Below the pieces are notes generated by a model, which was not told where the DNA came from, ran no database searches, and was given only the letters and a program-made list of their open reading frames with translations. The translations under genes were made by a program, and so were the position numbers. This document shows positions 6,412 through 11,703 of a stretch of DNA of 64,000 nucleotides, piece by piece. The stretch comes from Sphingobium nicotianae. Lineage in GTDB: Bacteria; Pseudomonadota; Alphaproteobacteria; Sphingomonadales; Sphingomonadaceae. The DNA lies in contig NZ_JAHGAW010000008.1 in assembly GCF_018603885.1 (NCBI RefSeq), positions 186,001 to 250,000 on the forward strand, given 5' to 3'. The first letter of the stretch is position 1. Each line of letters begins with the position of its first letter.

Positions 6412-7032
6412 TCAGGCGCCTCCGTAGCCGTTTCCGATGCGCCGCTTGGCGGAATACATGGCCATGTCGGCGCGGGCGATCGCGGAGAAGTCGCTGTCGC
6501 CGGGGCGCAGCGCGGTGCAGCCGAACGAGGCGGAGAGCATGAGGACATCCTCGCCGAACCGGCATTCCGAGGCCGCGATGGCGGCGGCGAGCTGGCTCGC
6601 CTTGTCGCGGGCCCCATCCTCGGTCACGCCATCGAGCAACAGCGCGAACTCGTCTCCGCCGACACGCGCGGCGATGTCCGTGCTGCGCACCGAGGCGGCC
6701 AGCAGGCGCGAGATATGCAGCAGCGCATAGTCGCCGGCGCTGTGGCCGTAATTGTCGTTGATCAGCTTCATGCCGTTGACGTCGACGAAGACCAGGGCGG
6801 CGAGGGTGCCGTATCGTTCCAGGCGGCTGAGGCGATCGGCGAGGCACGAGATGAAATGGCGGCGATTGAACAGCGGCGTGAGCGTGTCGCGCACCACCAG
6901 CCGCTCGAGCTCCTCATTGGCGAGTTGCAGCAGCCGCAGCTCTCTGCGGAGCGCGAAAACCTCTTGTTCCAGTGCCGGGAGGTCGCCGCCGTTTGAGTCG
7001 CGCGCGACGTCCCGGGTAGTGGCTCGTGCCAA
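6412..7032 (-). CDS. Diguanylate cyclase (GGDEF domain) without sensor domain
   Basis: This 206-residue protein makes cyclic di-GMP from two GTP. After a short N-terminal coiled-coil (about 20-48), the GGDEF domain carries metal-binding D84 (F-V-D-V-N-G) and the active-site GGDEF at 125-129. R116-S-T-D119 stands five residues before it, which is the RxxD allosteric inhibitory site, so product feedback is expected. No membrane segment or recognised sensor domain is present, so activity would be controlled by dimerisation through the coiled-coil or by expression. It is first in a two-gene unit with the acetyltransferase. Confidence 0.92.
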   Translation of the reverse strand: MARATTRDVARDSNGGDLPALEQEVFALRRELRLLQLANEELERLVVRDTLTPLFNRRHFISCLADRLSRLERYGTLAALVFVDVNGMKLINDNYGHSAGDYALLHISRLLAASVRSTDIAARVGGDEFALLLDGVTEDGARDKASQLAAAIAASECRFGEDVLMLSASFGCTALRPGDSDFSAIARADMAMYSAKRRIGNGYGGA

Positions 7033-7261
7033 GCTCTACCTCCCTTGCGCGACCAAGATGTGAACCCGTTTTACGAAGTATAGTTTCATGTTTTGATTTT
7101 TGCAGCCCCAAAAGAGCGACCGGTCCCGAAGCTGGACCGTTTTGATCGGTTGTGCCGCCTGCCCCTGATCTCTATTGGCGAGCGAATTAACGAAAGGTTT
7201 CCAGCCGACATGTCCAGGCGCATTAGGCATGGATTTAGGCGATAAGGTCGGGGCGGGTAAG

Positions 7262-7738
7262 ATGGTGAAAATAGGCGTGATCATGGGCTCGCAATCCGAT
7301 TGGGAGACCATGCGCCATACGTCCGACACGCTCAAAACGCTCGATGTGCCGCATGAATGCCGTATCGTCTCGGCGCACCGCACGCCCGACCGGATGGCTG
7401 ACTATGCCAAAAACGCGGCAGGACGTGGGCTGGAGATCATCATCGCGGCCGCCGGCGGCGCGGCGCACCTGCCGGGCATGACCGCCGCCATGACGCGCCT
7501 GCCTGTGCTCGGCGTGCCGATCCAGTCCGCCGCGCTCTCGGGCGTCGACAGCCTCTATTCCATCGTCCAGATGCCCGGCGGCATCCCTGTCGGCACGCTT
7601 GCGATCGGCAAGCCCGGCGCGATCAACGCCGCCCTGCTGGCGGCCGCCATTCTCGCCAATCACGATCCGGCGCTGGCCCGGCGGCTCGATGCCTGGCGCA
7701 AGCGGCAGACCGAGGCGGTGGCGGAGACGCCCGAATGA
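7262..7738 (+). CDS. purE: N5-carboxyaminoimidazole ribonucleotide mutase
   Basis: This 158-residue enzyme converts N5-CAIR to CAIR in purine synthesis. The N-terminal [12 protein letters not shown] motif, the A-H-R-T-P-D-R loop and the [11 protein letters not shown] turn are those of class I PurE. ATG 7262 gives the family start M-V-K-I-G-V-I-M-G; in-frame codons at 7175 and 7229 would add a tail without similarity. purK follows on the same strand but is split off by an 89-bp palindromic repeat. Confidence 0.95.
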
Positions 7739-7761
7739 GGTGCCTCGCACCCTCAGCATCT

Positions 7762-7850
7762 CGTCATTCCGGCGAACGCGGGAATCCAGTTGCAATGTCG
7801 ATGACGAGTGCGCCAATGCGGTCTGGATTCCCGCGTCCGCGGGAATGACG
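7762..7850. repeat. Family-E inverted repeat between purE and purK
   Basis: Arms 7762-7788 and 7824-7850 (27 nt each) are complementary at 25 of 27 positions; the right arm begins tggattcccgcgtccgcggg. The 89-bp element resembles the widespread gcggga-rich palindromes flanking proteobacterial genes. It sits wholly in the purE-purK gap and could modulate purK expression through an RNA hairpin. Confidence 0.85.
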
Positions 7851-7875
7851 GCAGTTTGGTGATCGGGAGCATCCC

Positions 7876-8964
7876 TTGAAACTCGTCCCTCCCGGTTCGA
7901 CCATCGGCATCGTCGGCGGCGGCCAGCTCGGCCGCATGCTCGCCATGGCGGGCGCGCAGCTCGGCTATCGCGCGCATATCTTCGCGCCCGAGGAGAGCGG
8001 GCCGGCCGCCGATGTCGCGCCGCGCTGGACGCGCGGCGCCTATGGGGACGCCGACGCGCTCGGCCGGTTCGCCGATGCGGTCGACGTCATCACTTACGAG
8101 TTCGAGAATGTGCCGAGCGAGGCGGTCGCGCTGCTCGGCCAGCTCGGCCATGTCCAGCCCAATGCGCGCGCCCTCGGCATCGCGCAGGACCGGCTGGCGG
8201 AGAAGGGCTTCGTCGCCGGGCTCGGCGGCCGCACCGCACCTTATGCGCCGGTCCCGGATCGCGTTGCGCTGGACGCGGCGATCGCGCAGGTCGGCGCCCC
8301 CGCGATCCTCAAGACCATCCGTTTCGGATATGACGGGAAGGGTCAGGCCCGCCTGATGGACACCGCCCCGGCCACGCTCGATCGCGCCTGGGCCGAGATT
8401 GGCGGGCAGAGCGCGGTGCTGGAGGGCTTCGTGCGGTTCGATCACGAATTCTCGGTGATTCTCGTGAGGGGCCATGACGGCCAGCTCCGCTTCTGGGATT
8501 CGCCGGTCAACGTCCATGCGGACGGCATCCTTGATACCTCGACCGTGCCCGCACCCCCGCCGATCCTCGCGCAGGTGCCGGAGGCGCGTGCCATCGCCGG
8601 CAGGATCGCGCAGGCGCTCGATTATGTCGGTGTGCTGGCGCTGGAGTTCTTCTGCGGCGCCGATGGGCCGATCTTCAACGAGATGGCGCCGCGCGTCCAC
8701 AATAGCGGTCACTGGACGATCGAGGGCGCCGTCACCAGCCAGTTCGAGAATCATGTCCGCGCCATTTGCGGCCTGCCGCTCGGCTCGACCCTGCTGGCCG
8801 CGCCCGGCGTCGCGATGGAGAATCTCATCGGCGACCAGGCGCACGACTGGGCGCAGATCCTCGCCGACGAGACCGCGCATCTGCATCTTTACGGCAAGCA
8901 TGAGGCGCGCCCCGGCCGCAAGATGGGCCATGTGACGCGGCTGCGTCTGGGAGGACAGGCATGA
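7876..8964 (+). CDS. purK: 5-(carboxyamino)imidazole ribonucleotide synthase
   Basis: This 362-residue ATP-grasp enzyme carboxylates AIR to N5-CAIR using ATP and bicarbonate, supplying PurE's substrate. The N-terminus I-G-I-V-G-G-G-Q-L-G-R-M-L is diagnostic. Later come I-L-K-T-I-R-F-G-Y-D-G-K-G-Q (ATP grasp) and the C-terminal N-E-M-A-P-R-V-H-N-S-G-H-W-T segment. Length fits the family. The stop overlaps the first DHFR start by 4 nt (ATGA at 8961-8964), so the two are translationally coupled. Confidence 0.95.
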   Translation: MKLVPPGSTIGIVGGGQLGRMLAMAGAQLGYRAHIFAPEESGPAADVAPRWTRGAYGDADALGRFADAVDVITYEFENVPSEAVALLGQLGHVQPNARALGIAQDRLAEKGFVAGLGGRTAPYAPVPDRVALDAAIAQVGAPAILKTIRFGYDGKGQARLMDTAPATLDRAWAEIGGQSAVLEGFVRFDHEFSVILVRGHDGQLRFWDSPVNVHADGILDTSTVPAPPPILAQVPEARAIAGRIAQALDYVGVLALEFFCGADGPIFNEMAPRVHNSGHWTIEGAVTSQFENHVRAICGLPLGSTLLAAPGVAMENLIGDQAHDWAQILADETAHLHLYGKHEARPGRKMGHVTRLRLGGQA

Positions 8965-9455
8965 GTGAGAGCAAGCCCGAAATCGTCCTGATGTTCGCCC
9001 GCGCCGACAATGGCGTGATCGGCGCGAACAACGATATTCCCTGGTATATCCCTTCGGATCTGCGCCGTTTCAAGGCGATGACGATGGGCACGCCGATGCT
9101 GATGGGCCGCAAGACCTTCGAGAGCCTGCCCGGCGTGCTGGCGGACAGGCGTCACATCGTGCTGACGCGCGATCCCGACTGGTCGGCGCCCGGCGCCGAG
9201 GTTGTCCACACGATGGAGGAGGCGATCGCCGCGGCGCACGGCCCGGTGCTCTCGGTGATCGGCGGCGCGGAGCTCCACGCCATGTTCGAGCCCATCGCCG
9301 ACCGGCTGGAATATACCGAGGTCCACATCGCGCCGCCGGGCGACACGACCATCCCCGCGCCGGACCTCACACGCTGGCGCGAGACCGCCCGCGAGGACTT
9401 CCCGCCGCTCGGTGACGTGCCGGCCTATAGCTACGTCACCTATCTGCGCGCCTGA
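8961..9455 (+). CDS. folA: Dihydrofolate reductase, tandem copy 1
   Basis: This 164-residue enzyme reduces dihydrofolate with NADPH. It shows N-G-V-I-G, I-P-W-Y-I-P-S-D-L with Trp28 and the catalytic-type Asp33 (equivalent to E. coli Asp27), M-G-R-K-T-F-E-S and V-I-G-G-A-E-L. His106 stands where E. coli has Tyr100, and the usual R-P-L-P-G-R segment is altered to G-V-L-A-D-R. The start overlaps purK by 4 nt. A second DHFR, about 70% identical by ungapped hand alignment, follows 11 nt later. Either copy could be the main FolA. Confidence 0.9.
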   Translation: MSESKPEIVLMFARADNGVIGANNDIPWYIPSDLRRFKAMTMGTPMLMGRKTFESLPGVLADRRHIVLTRDPDWSAPGAEVVHTMEEAIAAAHGPVLSVIGGAELHAMFEPIADRLEYTEVHIAPPGDTTIPAPDLTRWRETAREDFPPLGDVPAYSYVTYLRA

Positions 9456-9466
9456 AACCCCGTCGC

Positions 9467-9961
9467 ATGGTCGCAGGCCGCCCGGAGATCGTTCTGCTGA
9501 TTGCCCGCGCCGACAATGGCGTGATCGGCAGCGACGGCGGCATCCCTTGGCGCATTCCCGGCGAGCAGCGTCGCTTCAAGGCGATGACCATGGGTACGCC
9601 GATGGTCATGGGCCGCAAGACCTTCGAGAGCTTCCCTCGGCCACTTCCCGGCCGCCGCCATATCGTGCTCACCCGCGACGGGGGATTGGCGCGGGAGGGC
9701 GCCGAGGTGGTCCACAGTGTCGAGGACGCGGTCGCCATCGCCGACGCGCCGGTCATCTCCGTGATCGGCGGCGCCGAGCTGTATCGCCTGTTCGAGCCGA
9801 TCGCCGATCGCATCGAACTGACCCAGGTGCATAGCTATCCGATGGGCGATGCCTTCATTGCCTCACCCGATCCTGCCCGCTGGCGCGAGACTGCCCGCGA
9901 GGATTTTCCCACGCTTGGCGACGTGCCGGCCTATAGCTACGTCACCTATCTGCGCGCCTGA
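9467..9961 (+). CDS. folA: Dihydrofolate reductase, tandem copy 2
   Basis: This 164-residue paralogue of the preceding gene keeps the standard M-G-R-K-T-F-E-S, R-P-L-P-G-R-R-H and G-G-A-E-L-Y (Tyr106) features. The folate-pocket acid is Glu33 (I-P-W-R-I-P-G-E-Q), not Asp, with Gln at the next position where copy 1 has Leu. Glu occupies this site in vertebrate DHFR. The last 42 nt of both genes are identical, which suggests recent duplication or gene conversion. The 11-nt gap points to cotranscription with purK and copy 1. Confidence 0.9.
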   Translation: MVAGRPEIVLLIARADNGVIGSDGGIPWRIPGEQRRFKAMTMGTPMVMGRKTFESFPRPLPGRRHIVLTRDGGLAREGAEVVHSVEDAVAIADAPVISVIGGAELYRLFEPIADRIELTQVHSYPMGDAFIASPDPARWRETAREDFPTLGDVPAYSYVTYLRA

Positions 9962-10066
9962 GCAATTCGGCCAACCCCGAGATGGTTCGCTGAGTTTCCC
10001 GGATGGAAAAGCCTGTGTCTAGCAGGGACTGGCGCAGACCCTCCGCGCTGCCTATAGCCGGGCTGA

Positions 10067-10993
10067 ATGGAACGGATCACCAGCGAGGGGGCGATCCCGG
10101 CGCATCTGCGCGGCGGCATCATCGCCCTTGGCAATTTCGACGGCTTTCATCTCGGTCATCAGGCCGTGGTGGCACGCGCCGTCGAGCGGGCGCGGGCGGA
10201 AGGGCGTCCCGTCATCGTCGCGACCTTCGATCCGCATCCCGTGCGCCTGTTCCGGCCCGAGACCCCTTTCTTCCGCCTGACCACGCTCGACCAGCGCGAG
10301 CGGCTGTTCGGGCAGGCGGGGGCGGACGCGATGCTGGTTTTCCGGTTCAACGAGGCGCTGGCGGCCAAGAGTGCCGAGGAATTCGTCGCCATGCTGACCG
10401 GCCCGCTCGGCGCGGCGGGCGTCGTCACCGGCGAGGACTTCACCTTCGGCAAGGGCCGCGGCGGCGACATCCATGTGCTGCGCCATCTCGGCGCGGCGCA
10501 GGGCTTCACGGCCGAGGCCGTCGCGCCGGTGCTGGACGAGCATGGCGAGATCGTCTCGTCCAGCCGCATCCGCGACGCGCTGGTGGCGGGCGATTGCGCC
10601 ACGGCGACCCGCCTGATGACGCGCCCTTTCGCCATTCAGGGCGAGGTGATCGACGGCGACAAGCGTGGCCGCACCATCGGCTTCCCGACCGCCAACATGC
10701 TGCTCGGTTCCTATCTGCGGCCGGCTTACGGCATCTATTCGGTGCGCGTGCGCCTGCCCGACGAGCGTGTCTATGCGGGCGCGGCCAATCTCGGCATCCG
10801 CCCGACCTTCGATCCGCCTAAGGAACTGCTCGAGACCTTCCTCTTTGATTTTTCCGGCAGCCTCTATGGCCAGACGCTGGACGTCGCCCTGATCGAGCGG
10901 CTGCGCGGCGAGGAGAAGTTCGACAGCCTCGACGCGCTGGTCGCGCAGATGGACAAGGACGTCGCCCGGGCGCGGGAGATTTTGGGCGCATGA
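10067..10993 (+). CDS. ribF: Bifunctional riboflavin kinase / FAD synthetase
   Basis: This 308-residue enzyme phosphorylates riboflavin to FMN and adenylates it to FAD. The N-terminal nucleotidyltransferase domain has G-N-F-D-G-F-H-L-G-H and the later S-S-S-R-I-R-D signature. The C-terminal kinase domain has G-R-T-I-G-F-P-T-A-N and A-A-N-L-G-I-R-P-T-F. Length fits proteobacterial RibF. In many bacteria ribF precedes ileS-lspA; here about 1.9 kb of other genes and repeats intervene before ileS. Confidence 0.95.
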   Translation: MERITSEGAIPAHLRGGIIALGNFDGFHLGHQAVVARAVERARAEGRPVIVATFDPHPVRLFRPETPFFRLTTLDQRERLFGQAGADAMLVFRFNEALAAKSAEEFVAMLTGPLGAAGVVTGEDFTFGKGRGGDIHVLRHLGAAQGFTAEAVAPVLDEHGEIVSSSRIRDALVAGDCATATRLMTRPFAIQGEVIDGDKRGRTIGFPTANMLLGSYLRPAYGIYSVRVRLPDERVYAGAANLGIRPTFDPPKELLETFLFDFSGSLYGQTLDVALIERLRGEEKFDSLDALVAQMDKDVARAREILGA

Positions 10994-11002
10994 CTGATCT
11001 AA

Positions 11003-11119
11003 GCCCCTCCCTTTCAAGGGAGGGGTAGGGGGTGGGTGTCGCGCAGCGATCATCGCAACGTCGCGTCAAGTCGCCAAGGTTGAAACCCCACCCCAACCCC
11101 TCCCCTAAAGGGGAGGGGC
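11003..11119. repeat. Family-C repeat, short form (117 bp)
   Basis: It starts gcccctccctttcaagggag and ends with a ccctaaaggggaggggc hairpin. Inside lie gggtgggtgtcgcgcagcgat and ccccaccccaacccc. It lacks the middle block of about 40 bp found in the copies at 37246-37400 and 56379-56532. It fills the ribF-acetyltransferase gap and ends 21 nt before the acetyltransferase ATG. Confidence 0.85.
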
Positions 11120-11139
11120 TAAAGACAAAATGGAGAGAC

Positions 11140-11703
11140 ATGACCCAGCCCCCCACCATCGAGACCCCCCGCCTCATCCTGCGCGCTTTCCGCGCCGACG
11201 ATGTCGAGACCTTCTGCGCGGAGATGGGCGACGATCGCTTCGCCGCCTTCATCACGCGCGAGGGGCGGGGCCTCAGCTATGCCGAGAGCTGGCAGCGCTT
11301 CTGCAATCTCTCGGGCCACTGGACCGCGCGCGGCTTCGGCAATTTCGCGGTGGAGGAGAAGGCGAGCGGCAACTTCGTCGGCCATGTCGGCCCGCTCCAG
11401 CCGCCGGGCTGGCCGGATTTCGAGATCGGCTGGGGCATCTTCCCGGCCTTCCAGGGCAGGGGCTATGCGGTCGAGGCGGCCGCGGCCGCATTCCACTGGG
11501 CGCATCACATGCTCGGCCGCACGCAGACGCTGCACATGATCGACCCGGCCAACGAGCCGAGCGCTCGTGTCGCCCGCGCGCTGGGCGCGGAGCCGGGCGA
11601 GATGTGGACGCCCTTCTGGCCGGAGGCCAAACCGGTGCGGCAATGGAAAACCACCTGGGAGGCGTTCACGGCGACACCGGTCTATGCGCGCCTGACCGCC
11701 TAA
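11140..11703 (+). CDS. GNAT-family N-acetyltransferase, RimJ/RimL type
   Basis: This 187-residue protein starts with I-E-T-P-R-L-I-L-R-A-F, the typical N-terminus of Acetyltransf_3 (RimJ-like) proteins. It has the acetyl-CoA loop F-Q-G-R-G-Y-A-V-E-A-A and ends with the M-I-D-P-A-N-E-P-S-A-R-V-A-R-A-L-G-A motif. It likely acetylates an amino group of a small molecule or protein terminus; the substrate is unknown. ATG 11140 follows GGAGAG; an upstream in-frame ATG at 11032 would translate repeat DNA and is rejected. Confidence 0.88.
   Translation: MTQPPTIETPRLILRAFRADDVETFCAEMGDDRFAAFITREGRGLSYAESWQRFCNLSGHWTARGFGNFAVEEKASGNFVGHVGPLQPPGWPDFEIGWGIFPAFQGRGYAVEAAAAAFHWAHHMLGRTQTLHMIDPANEPSARVARALGAEPGEMWTPFWPEAKPVRQWKTTWEAFTATPVYARLTA

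Follow-up and report, generated by a model that had tools for sequence, protein, structure and literature searches.

The window (the whole stretch of DNA that was analysed, 64,000 nucleotides) carries two adjacent dihydrofolate reductase (DHFR) genes that are most likely a xenologous pair, or synologs, made of a resident folA (copy 2) and an acquired one (copy 1), and not the product of a duplication within the lineage. With a probability of roughly two in three, copy 1 came from a lineage resembling that of genome G059 and entered the ancestor shared by the window genome and genome G057, by recombination of the DNA bearing it into the purK-folA-ribF locus; G057 would later have lost its resident gene, and with both genes retained the window genome would represent an intermediate of xenologous displacement. 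When a foreign homolog displaces an essential housekeeping gene, this is usually recognized in retrospect, from trees. With a resident gene and a newcomer side by side, this locus may instead capture such a replacement while it is going on. Both genes seemingly stand at the native locus here and the probable sister, G057, shows only the newcomer, so that the steps of the displacement become testable in living strains.

Organization of the folA locus

The preliminary description of this DNA had reported two DHFR genes 11 nt apart with 114 of 164 residues identical, and our analysis agrees on each of these points, both genes being intact ORFs (Table 1). The flanking genes carry the usual names of their families.

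Table 1. Features of the folA locus, with positions counted in the window.
Feature	Position	Strand	Remarks
purE	7262..7738	+	Opens the gene run; start inferred (ATG); from the ORF list; collinear in relatives
purK	7876..8964	+	Stop and folA copy 1 start codon overlap in ATGA (8961-8964); from the ORF list; collinear in relatives
folA copy 1 (DHFR, 164 aa)	8961..9455	+	Asp33-Leu34, Ala61-Asp62, His106; G057/G059 type; probable incoming xenolog
3' tail of folA copy 1, same as copy 2 tail	9414..9455	+	Probable conversion tract
Spacer AACCCCGTCGC between the folA copies, 11 nt	9456..9466	.	No purine-rich ribosome-binding site by eye
folA copy 2 (DHFR, 164 aa)	9467..9961	+	Glu33-Gln34, Tyr106, Leu74; SYK-6/G090 type; probable resident gene
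3' tail of folA copy 2, same as copy 1 tail	9920..9961	+	Likely source of the tract
ribF	10067..10993	+	Next gene, 105 nt 3' of folA copy 2

A GGGAGG motif lies 7-12 nt upstream of the start of copy 1; nothing like it was found in the 11-nt spacer before copy 2, and a simple scan of positions 7000-11200 returned no sigma-70-like promoter. We infer two active enzymes whose genes would be read through from purE-purK, translation of copy 1 starting from a ribosome-binding site of its own, which overlaps the purK stop, and that of copy 2 being coupled over the 11-nt spacer, with both DHFRs recycling the dihydrofolate made by ThyA. Third-codon-position GC is 0.885 in copy 1, 0.812 in copy 2, 0.854 in purK and 0.867 in ribF, and by this measure the codon composition of copy 1 bears no foreign signature in comparison with the other three genes. 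No mobile element was noticed among the ORFs neighbouring the pair. Between purE and purK (7762-7850) we also observed a 28-nt inverted repeat, 93% complementary, with 33 nt between its arms and with the ends CGTCATTCC..GGAATGACG, which resembles a dispersed intergenic repeat.

Both proteins matched PF00186, with 153.8 and 157.2 bits for a cut-off of 25. They missed the cut-off of NF008037, the model for type 3 dihydrofolate reductase (79.1 and 96.3 bits vs 168), and no model among the best 25 of the 28 matched by each copy reached its NCBIfam cut-off. The alignment with E. coli FolA showed that Trp22, Phe31, Arg57 and Thr113 are invariant in both copies and that both have an acid, Asp or Glu, at E. 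coli position 27; together we take these to be the key positions of a DHFR. For copy 1, the one that was folded, the AlphaFold model has a DHFR fold with a mean pLDDT of 94.2 and a Foldseek TM of about 0.9 to solved DHFRs. The locus resembles a chromosomal folA of the PF00186 family in length, fold (for copy 1), pocket residues and purK-folA-ribF order, and differs from it by having two diverged copies instead of one and, in copy 1, His at Tyr100 and Asp at Gly56.

Pairwise dN/dS values (Nei-Gojobori) were 0.125 to G057 and 0.134 to G059 for copy 1, and 0.167 to SYK-6, 0.191 to G046 and 0.225 to G090 for copy 2, with a dS of 0.64-0.92 in the same-type pairs (copy 1 with G057 and G059, copy 2 with SYK-6 and G090). 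Comparisons across types gave higher values, 0.251 between copy 1 and copy 2 and 0.334 between copy 1 and G090. These ratios suggest that both copies are under constraint, and such purifying selection, with the relatives that have a DHFR of either type as sole copy, lends indirect support to a reduction of dihydrofolate with NADPH by both enzymes. The preliminary description had envisaged that one of them might prove to be an inactive relic; neither looks like one, as opposed by the range of 0.125-0.225 to the nearest same-type relatives and, for copy 1, also by the confident fold. We considered in addition whether DHFR could be bypassed by ThyX, and this was rejected, since ThyX was found in none of ten genomes, including that of the window; ThyA was found in nine of the ten, the window genome among them and the incomplete G059 excepted. 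As ThyA is present and ThyX was not found, DHFR activity is expected to be essential.

Rarity of the tandem pair

The window genome (4.43 Mb in 26 contigs, 99.95% complete, 0.3% contaminated) contains no third PF00186 match. We searched 94 genomes of the same genus, this one included, and found one DHFR match in 91, two in 2 and none in 1, the last being only 60% complete. In the other genome with two matches, G075, these lie on different contigs and the assembly is 9% contaminated; none of the other 93 same-genus genomes shows a tandem folA pair. A search of the family (397 genomes) with copy 1 as query, in which a very diverged second DHFR could go undetected, gave one match in 384 genomes, none in 8 and two in 5. 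Among the candidates so raised, G171 and G265 yielded one PF00186 match each despite their two matches in the family search, and the two partial matches of G100 and of G247 were recognized by the PF00186 check as one interrupted gene; with G075, all five were examined and none is tandem. The split of the sole DHFR match in G100 (G100:C1:1747309-1747793) and G247 (G247:C157:24408-24859) reflects either a sequencing error or a broken folA. In 39 genomes of the same order reached with copy 2, one match each was found. The genus and family sets overlap by 11 genomes and thus amount to 480 distinct genomes, in none of which, other than the window genome, was a folA pair like this one found. The retained pair is therefore as unusual as had been claimed from the window alone.

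Position of the two copies in gene and species trees

The DHFR tree was built on 95 of 120 rows after removing the tail shared by the two copies. Loci L101 and above were omitted (mostly other families; L101 is a Sphingomonas), and repeat and very distant loci had been skipped before. In this tree, copy 2 joins G090 with a support of 100/92 and then Sphingobium sp. SYK-6 and G028 with 91/83. Copy 1, G057 and G059 form a clade of their own (100/99) that branches outside the group's other DHFRs, that of the deepest species, G084, included, and is sister to them. The two copies are thus not sisters in the gene tree, as expected of synologs. AU tests rejected a sister relation of copies 1 and 2 (p 0.012), a placement of copy 1 and G057 with the SYK-6-group rows, G059 and G084 excluded (p 0.026), and their placement with only the rows of SYK-6, G028, G090, copy 2 and G046 (p 0.003). 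As a side observation, the DHFR of Sphingobium sufflavum G084 (L068:3001-3480) lies inside the Glu-Gln clade (see below) beside G046 on a long branch, so that folA exchange in the group may extend beyond the window pair.

The duplication within this lineage that had first been proposed does not survive the rejection of sister copies. In its most explicit form, a recent duplication in the window lineage after which copy 1, released from constraint, diverged fast, we regard it as highly improbable. Such an event would account for two adjacent genes of equal length with identical last 42 nt, and for 7 nt common to the 11-nt spacer and the DNA after copy 2. Against it, in addition to the AU test, Asp62 of copy 1 recurs in G057 and G059 and its His106 in G059 (the cut codon of G057 starts with C, as one for His would), and the dN/dS of copy 1 to its own relatives, 0.125-0.134, is below that of copy 2.

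The species relationships were approached with a marker tree of ribF, ileS, argS, valS and leuS, using matched segments in 10 genomes. Results showed the window genome with G057 (96/97) and then with G090 (92/99), and the marker data spoke against a grouping of the window genome with SYK-6 and G028 (p 0.033) as well as against one with G057 and G059 (p 0.007). By these marker genes, G057 is probably the sister of the window genome and G090 the next relative. Single-gene trees of ribF, ileS, argS and leuS gave the window genome with G057, those of purK and valS did not, and in a three-gene tree without argS of G057 the window genome went with SYK-6 at 83/99, the position of G057 being unresolved. 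The window purE is 90% identical to that of G090 and 78% to that of G057, an affinity that suggests recombination in this chromosomal stretch. When the DHFR and marker trees are read together, the position of copy 2 is the one expected of an inherited gene, and that of copy 1 is not. The preliminary description had considered that copy 2 might have come in by transfer; transfer is indeed what the trees favour, but in mirror image, as copy 1 appears to be the newcomer.

A tree with copy 2 beside G090 and SYK-6 and with copy 1 beside G057 and the distant G059 would also be produced by an ancient tandem duplication that preceded the split of the SYK-6 group, followed by about seven losses, the other lineages having lost one copy and the window genome alone having kept the pair. 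We consider this main rival unlikely. In its favour, the copy-1 clade is sister to the group's other DHFRs, even to that of the deepest species G084, copy 1 does not stand out as foreign in codon composition, and the hydrolases preceding ribF in G057 and G059 are quite diverged, as those of an old shared arrangement would be. The cost, however, is a loss of copy 1 in each of G084, G058/G061, G046, SYK-6/G028 and G090 and a loss of copy 2 in G059 and in G057, versus one or two transfers and one loss if copy 1 was acquired; moreover, the tandem arrangement is seen in none of the other 93 genomes of the genus, and the similarity of copy 1 to G059 somewhat exceeds the prediction from the markers. 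This excess, 84% identity vs a mean of 79% for seven markers, or 2.1 sd more than the trend across 21 pairs predicts, backs transfer only modestly, and when the comparison is limited to the first 105 residues the three copy-1-type pairs exceed the trend by 1.2-1.5 sd. Among 69 loci compared in genomes of named species, close relatives only, identity to copy 1 exceeds 71% in L063 (G059) and L071 (G057) alone. We also looked for a resident-type 5' end in copy 1, but its first 20 codons are about equally close to G090, G059 and G057 (87, 85 and 83%) and make no case for one.

The identical 3' ends

The last 42 nt of the two copies, stop codon included, are identical, which the preliminary description had taken as a hint of gene conversion, and closer inspection strengthens this view. 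The copies agree at 57% of third codon positions over their whole length and at 93% in the final 14 codons, showing that the tail is not background. In the tail, copy 1 agrees with copy 2 against G059 at 7 sites and with G059 against copy 2 at 0, and outside it the corresponding numbers are 30 and 75 (Fisher p 0.0003, with a cut picked after seeing the tail). The folA of SYK-6 ends in CTGCGCGCCTGA, as both window copies do, and that of G059 in CGGAGGCGCTGA. Because the tail is like SYK-6 and unlike G059 (one relative each), the direction was probably from copy 2 to copy 1, and the identical 3' ends probably arose by gene conversion in this sense.

The spacer AACCCCGTCGC and the first 20 nt after copy 2 have AACCCCG in common, a weak match that was equalled in 70 of 5000 shuffles when the first 20 nt were considered and in 251 of 5000 for the 105 nt, and that may be a trace of copy 2 having once been duplicated in tandem. 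This leads to a variant of the displacement reading, counted inside its probability and in itself quite doubtful, in which the resident folA was duplicated in tandem and the first copy was then overwritten by a copy-1-type gene except for its last 42 nt, which stayed resident. The variant would explain the tail, which resembles SYK-6 and not G059, together with the shared AACCCCG and no separate conversion event, but the 7-nt match is of the modest quality just given, and G057, if it shares the acquisition, should show the same tail at a point that lies beyond the end of its contig.

Active-site residues and trimethoprim

Asp33-Leu34 of copy 1 and Glu33-Gln34 of copy 2, both correctly read in the preliminary description, align with Asp27-Leu28 of E. 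coli FolA. Copy 2 is thus equivalent to D27E + L28Q; copy 1 corresponds, in E. coli numbering, to Y100H, P55A and G56D, its His106 aligning with Tyr100. In what follows, residue counts are not frequencies, because the 95 rows (39 of them from the genus) are not the whole genus and loci were fetched best matches first. His106 had been singled out as a departure from the usual Tyr, and among the 94 rows reaching this position we counted Tyr in 63, Phe in 28, His in 2 (copy 1 and G059) and Cys in 1. Three of 95 rows have Asp at E. coli position 56, and Asp62 of copy 1 is common to G057 and G059. At position 74, copy 2 has Leu and the 94 other rows Trp. Judged by sequence, copy 1 is the odder of the two at the pocket with respect to the sampled family (His106, Asp62).

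The Glu-Gln pair had been presented as a change of copy 2, yet it is found in 8 of the 95 rows (copy 2, SYK-6, G028, G090, G046, G061, G084 and L083), and the enzyme bearing it is the only DHFR found in six SYK-6-group genomes; G058, of the same group, has Asp-Leu. On these alignments, most genomes of the SYK-6 group have Glu-Gln as their resident state. The DHFR of L083 (L083:3001-3480, Sphingomonadaceae MAG CP_BM_RX_R9_5) has copy 2's IPWRIPGEQRRFKAMTM stretch and stands on the Sphingomonas side of the tree, where its Glu27/Gln28 may represent a second origin or a recombination of the pair.

The same two substitutions are known from resistance enzymes. In PMC9106665, D27E/L28Q is reported for the trimethoprim-resistant DfrA1 and DfrA5 and the pair is reported as conserved in 67% of DfrA proteins; introduced in E. 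coli DHFR, it causes a 98-fold drop in affinity for trimethoprim and a 70-fold drop in catalytic efficiency, so that other changes are thought necessary. As the Glu-Gln pair of DfrA1/DfrA5 occupies the corresponding positions in copy 2 and in the six SYK-6-group enzymes, we predict a trimethoprim-insensitive resident enzyme. Chromosomal D27E/L28Q DHFRs present as sole copy likewise predict trimethoprim insensitivity in SYK-6 and relatives and, considering the cost of about 70-fold in catalytic efficiency given for E. coli DHFR in PMC9106665, the SYK-6-group DHFRs would be natural backgrounds in which the two changes must work. Unlike the mobile DfrA1/DfrA5, copy 2 is chromosomal, nested among sphingomonad folA genes and, with 76.1 bits, far below the cut-off of 250 bits of NF000330 (DfrA1-like), which copy 1 also missed with 63.9. 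The incoming Asp-Leu, His100 enzyme is predicted to differ in folate and inhibitor binding. The earlier proposal is supported in that there are residues here that bear on antifolate binding, and an altered antifolate response is plausible.

A cell with two DHFRs of different origin recalls the acquisition of a dfrA beside a sensitive chromosomal folA, as described in PMC9106665 and PMC7725336; in contrast to that situation, it is the resident that has the resistance-type residues and the newcomer, in the native locus, that has Asp-Leu. One could imagine a two-enzyme system of reversed polarity, in which the resident antifolate-insensitive Glu27/Gln28 enzyme and the acquired Asp27/Leu28, His100 enzyme, whose kinetics would differ, are both maintained by selection for different folate or inhibitor conditions, an idea that we hold only tentatively and rate as rather improbable. 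Literature searches returned nothing on SYK-6 with DHFR, nor on F98Y with Y100 in S. aureus DHFR, and the main texts found for D27E + L28Q DHFR lacked the word stem Sphingo.

folA loci in relatives

The order purK-folA-ribF is present in close relatives, and G057, G059, G046, G058, G061, G084, G090, SYK-6 and G028 have one PF00186 match each. In G059, a single contig carries purE-purK-folA-alpha/beta hydrolase-ribF, with an intact, single folA of the copy-1 type. The folA of G057 is cut by a contig end after codon 105; the next base is C, which as first base of codon 106 fits His and not Tyr. The contig with ribF in G057 starts with the end of an alpha/beta hydrolase like that of G059, and the two hydrolases are 62% identical over 63 residues, a value so low that it argues against one recently moved folA-hydrolase cassette. 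Completeness is 91% for G057 and 80%, with 6% contamination, for G059; these assemblies being incomplete and the folA of G057 cut, either may have a second folA that escaped notice. With this proviso, G057 suggests that the newcomer folA can take over alone.

We also searched for a source of the genes. No close plasmid match to copy 1 or copy 2 was seen among the up to 5000 records listed, the best of which, from Sphingopyxis, reached 56% for copy 1 and 59% for copy 2, and no close match to copy 1 was found in phages or viral contigs. The G059 lineage is a donor-like relative only, neither a donor nor a vector having been found in these searches. The proposed history resembles the laboratory replacement of folA between species in E. 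coli, in which (Bershtein et al. 2015, PMC4618355) a foreign folA takes the place of the resident one; the window differs from it in being a natural case with both genes present.

The interval between folA and ribF varies among these genomes (positions 9962-10066 in the window; L063:3496-4555 in G059, with the hydrolase; L152; L068): in G090 it holds a long ORF that by eye looks like a membrane dipeptidase, in G084 it spans about 2 kb and in SYK-6 about 130 nt.
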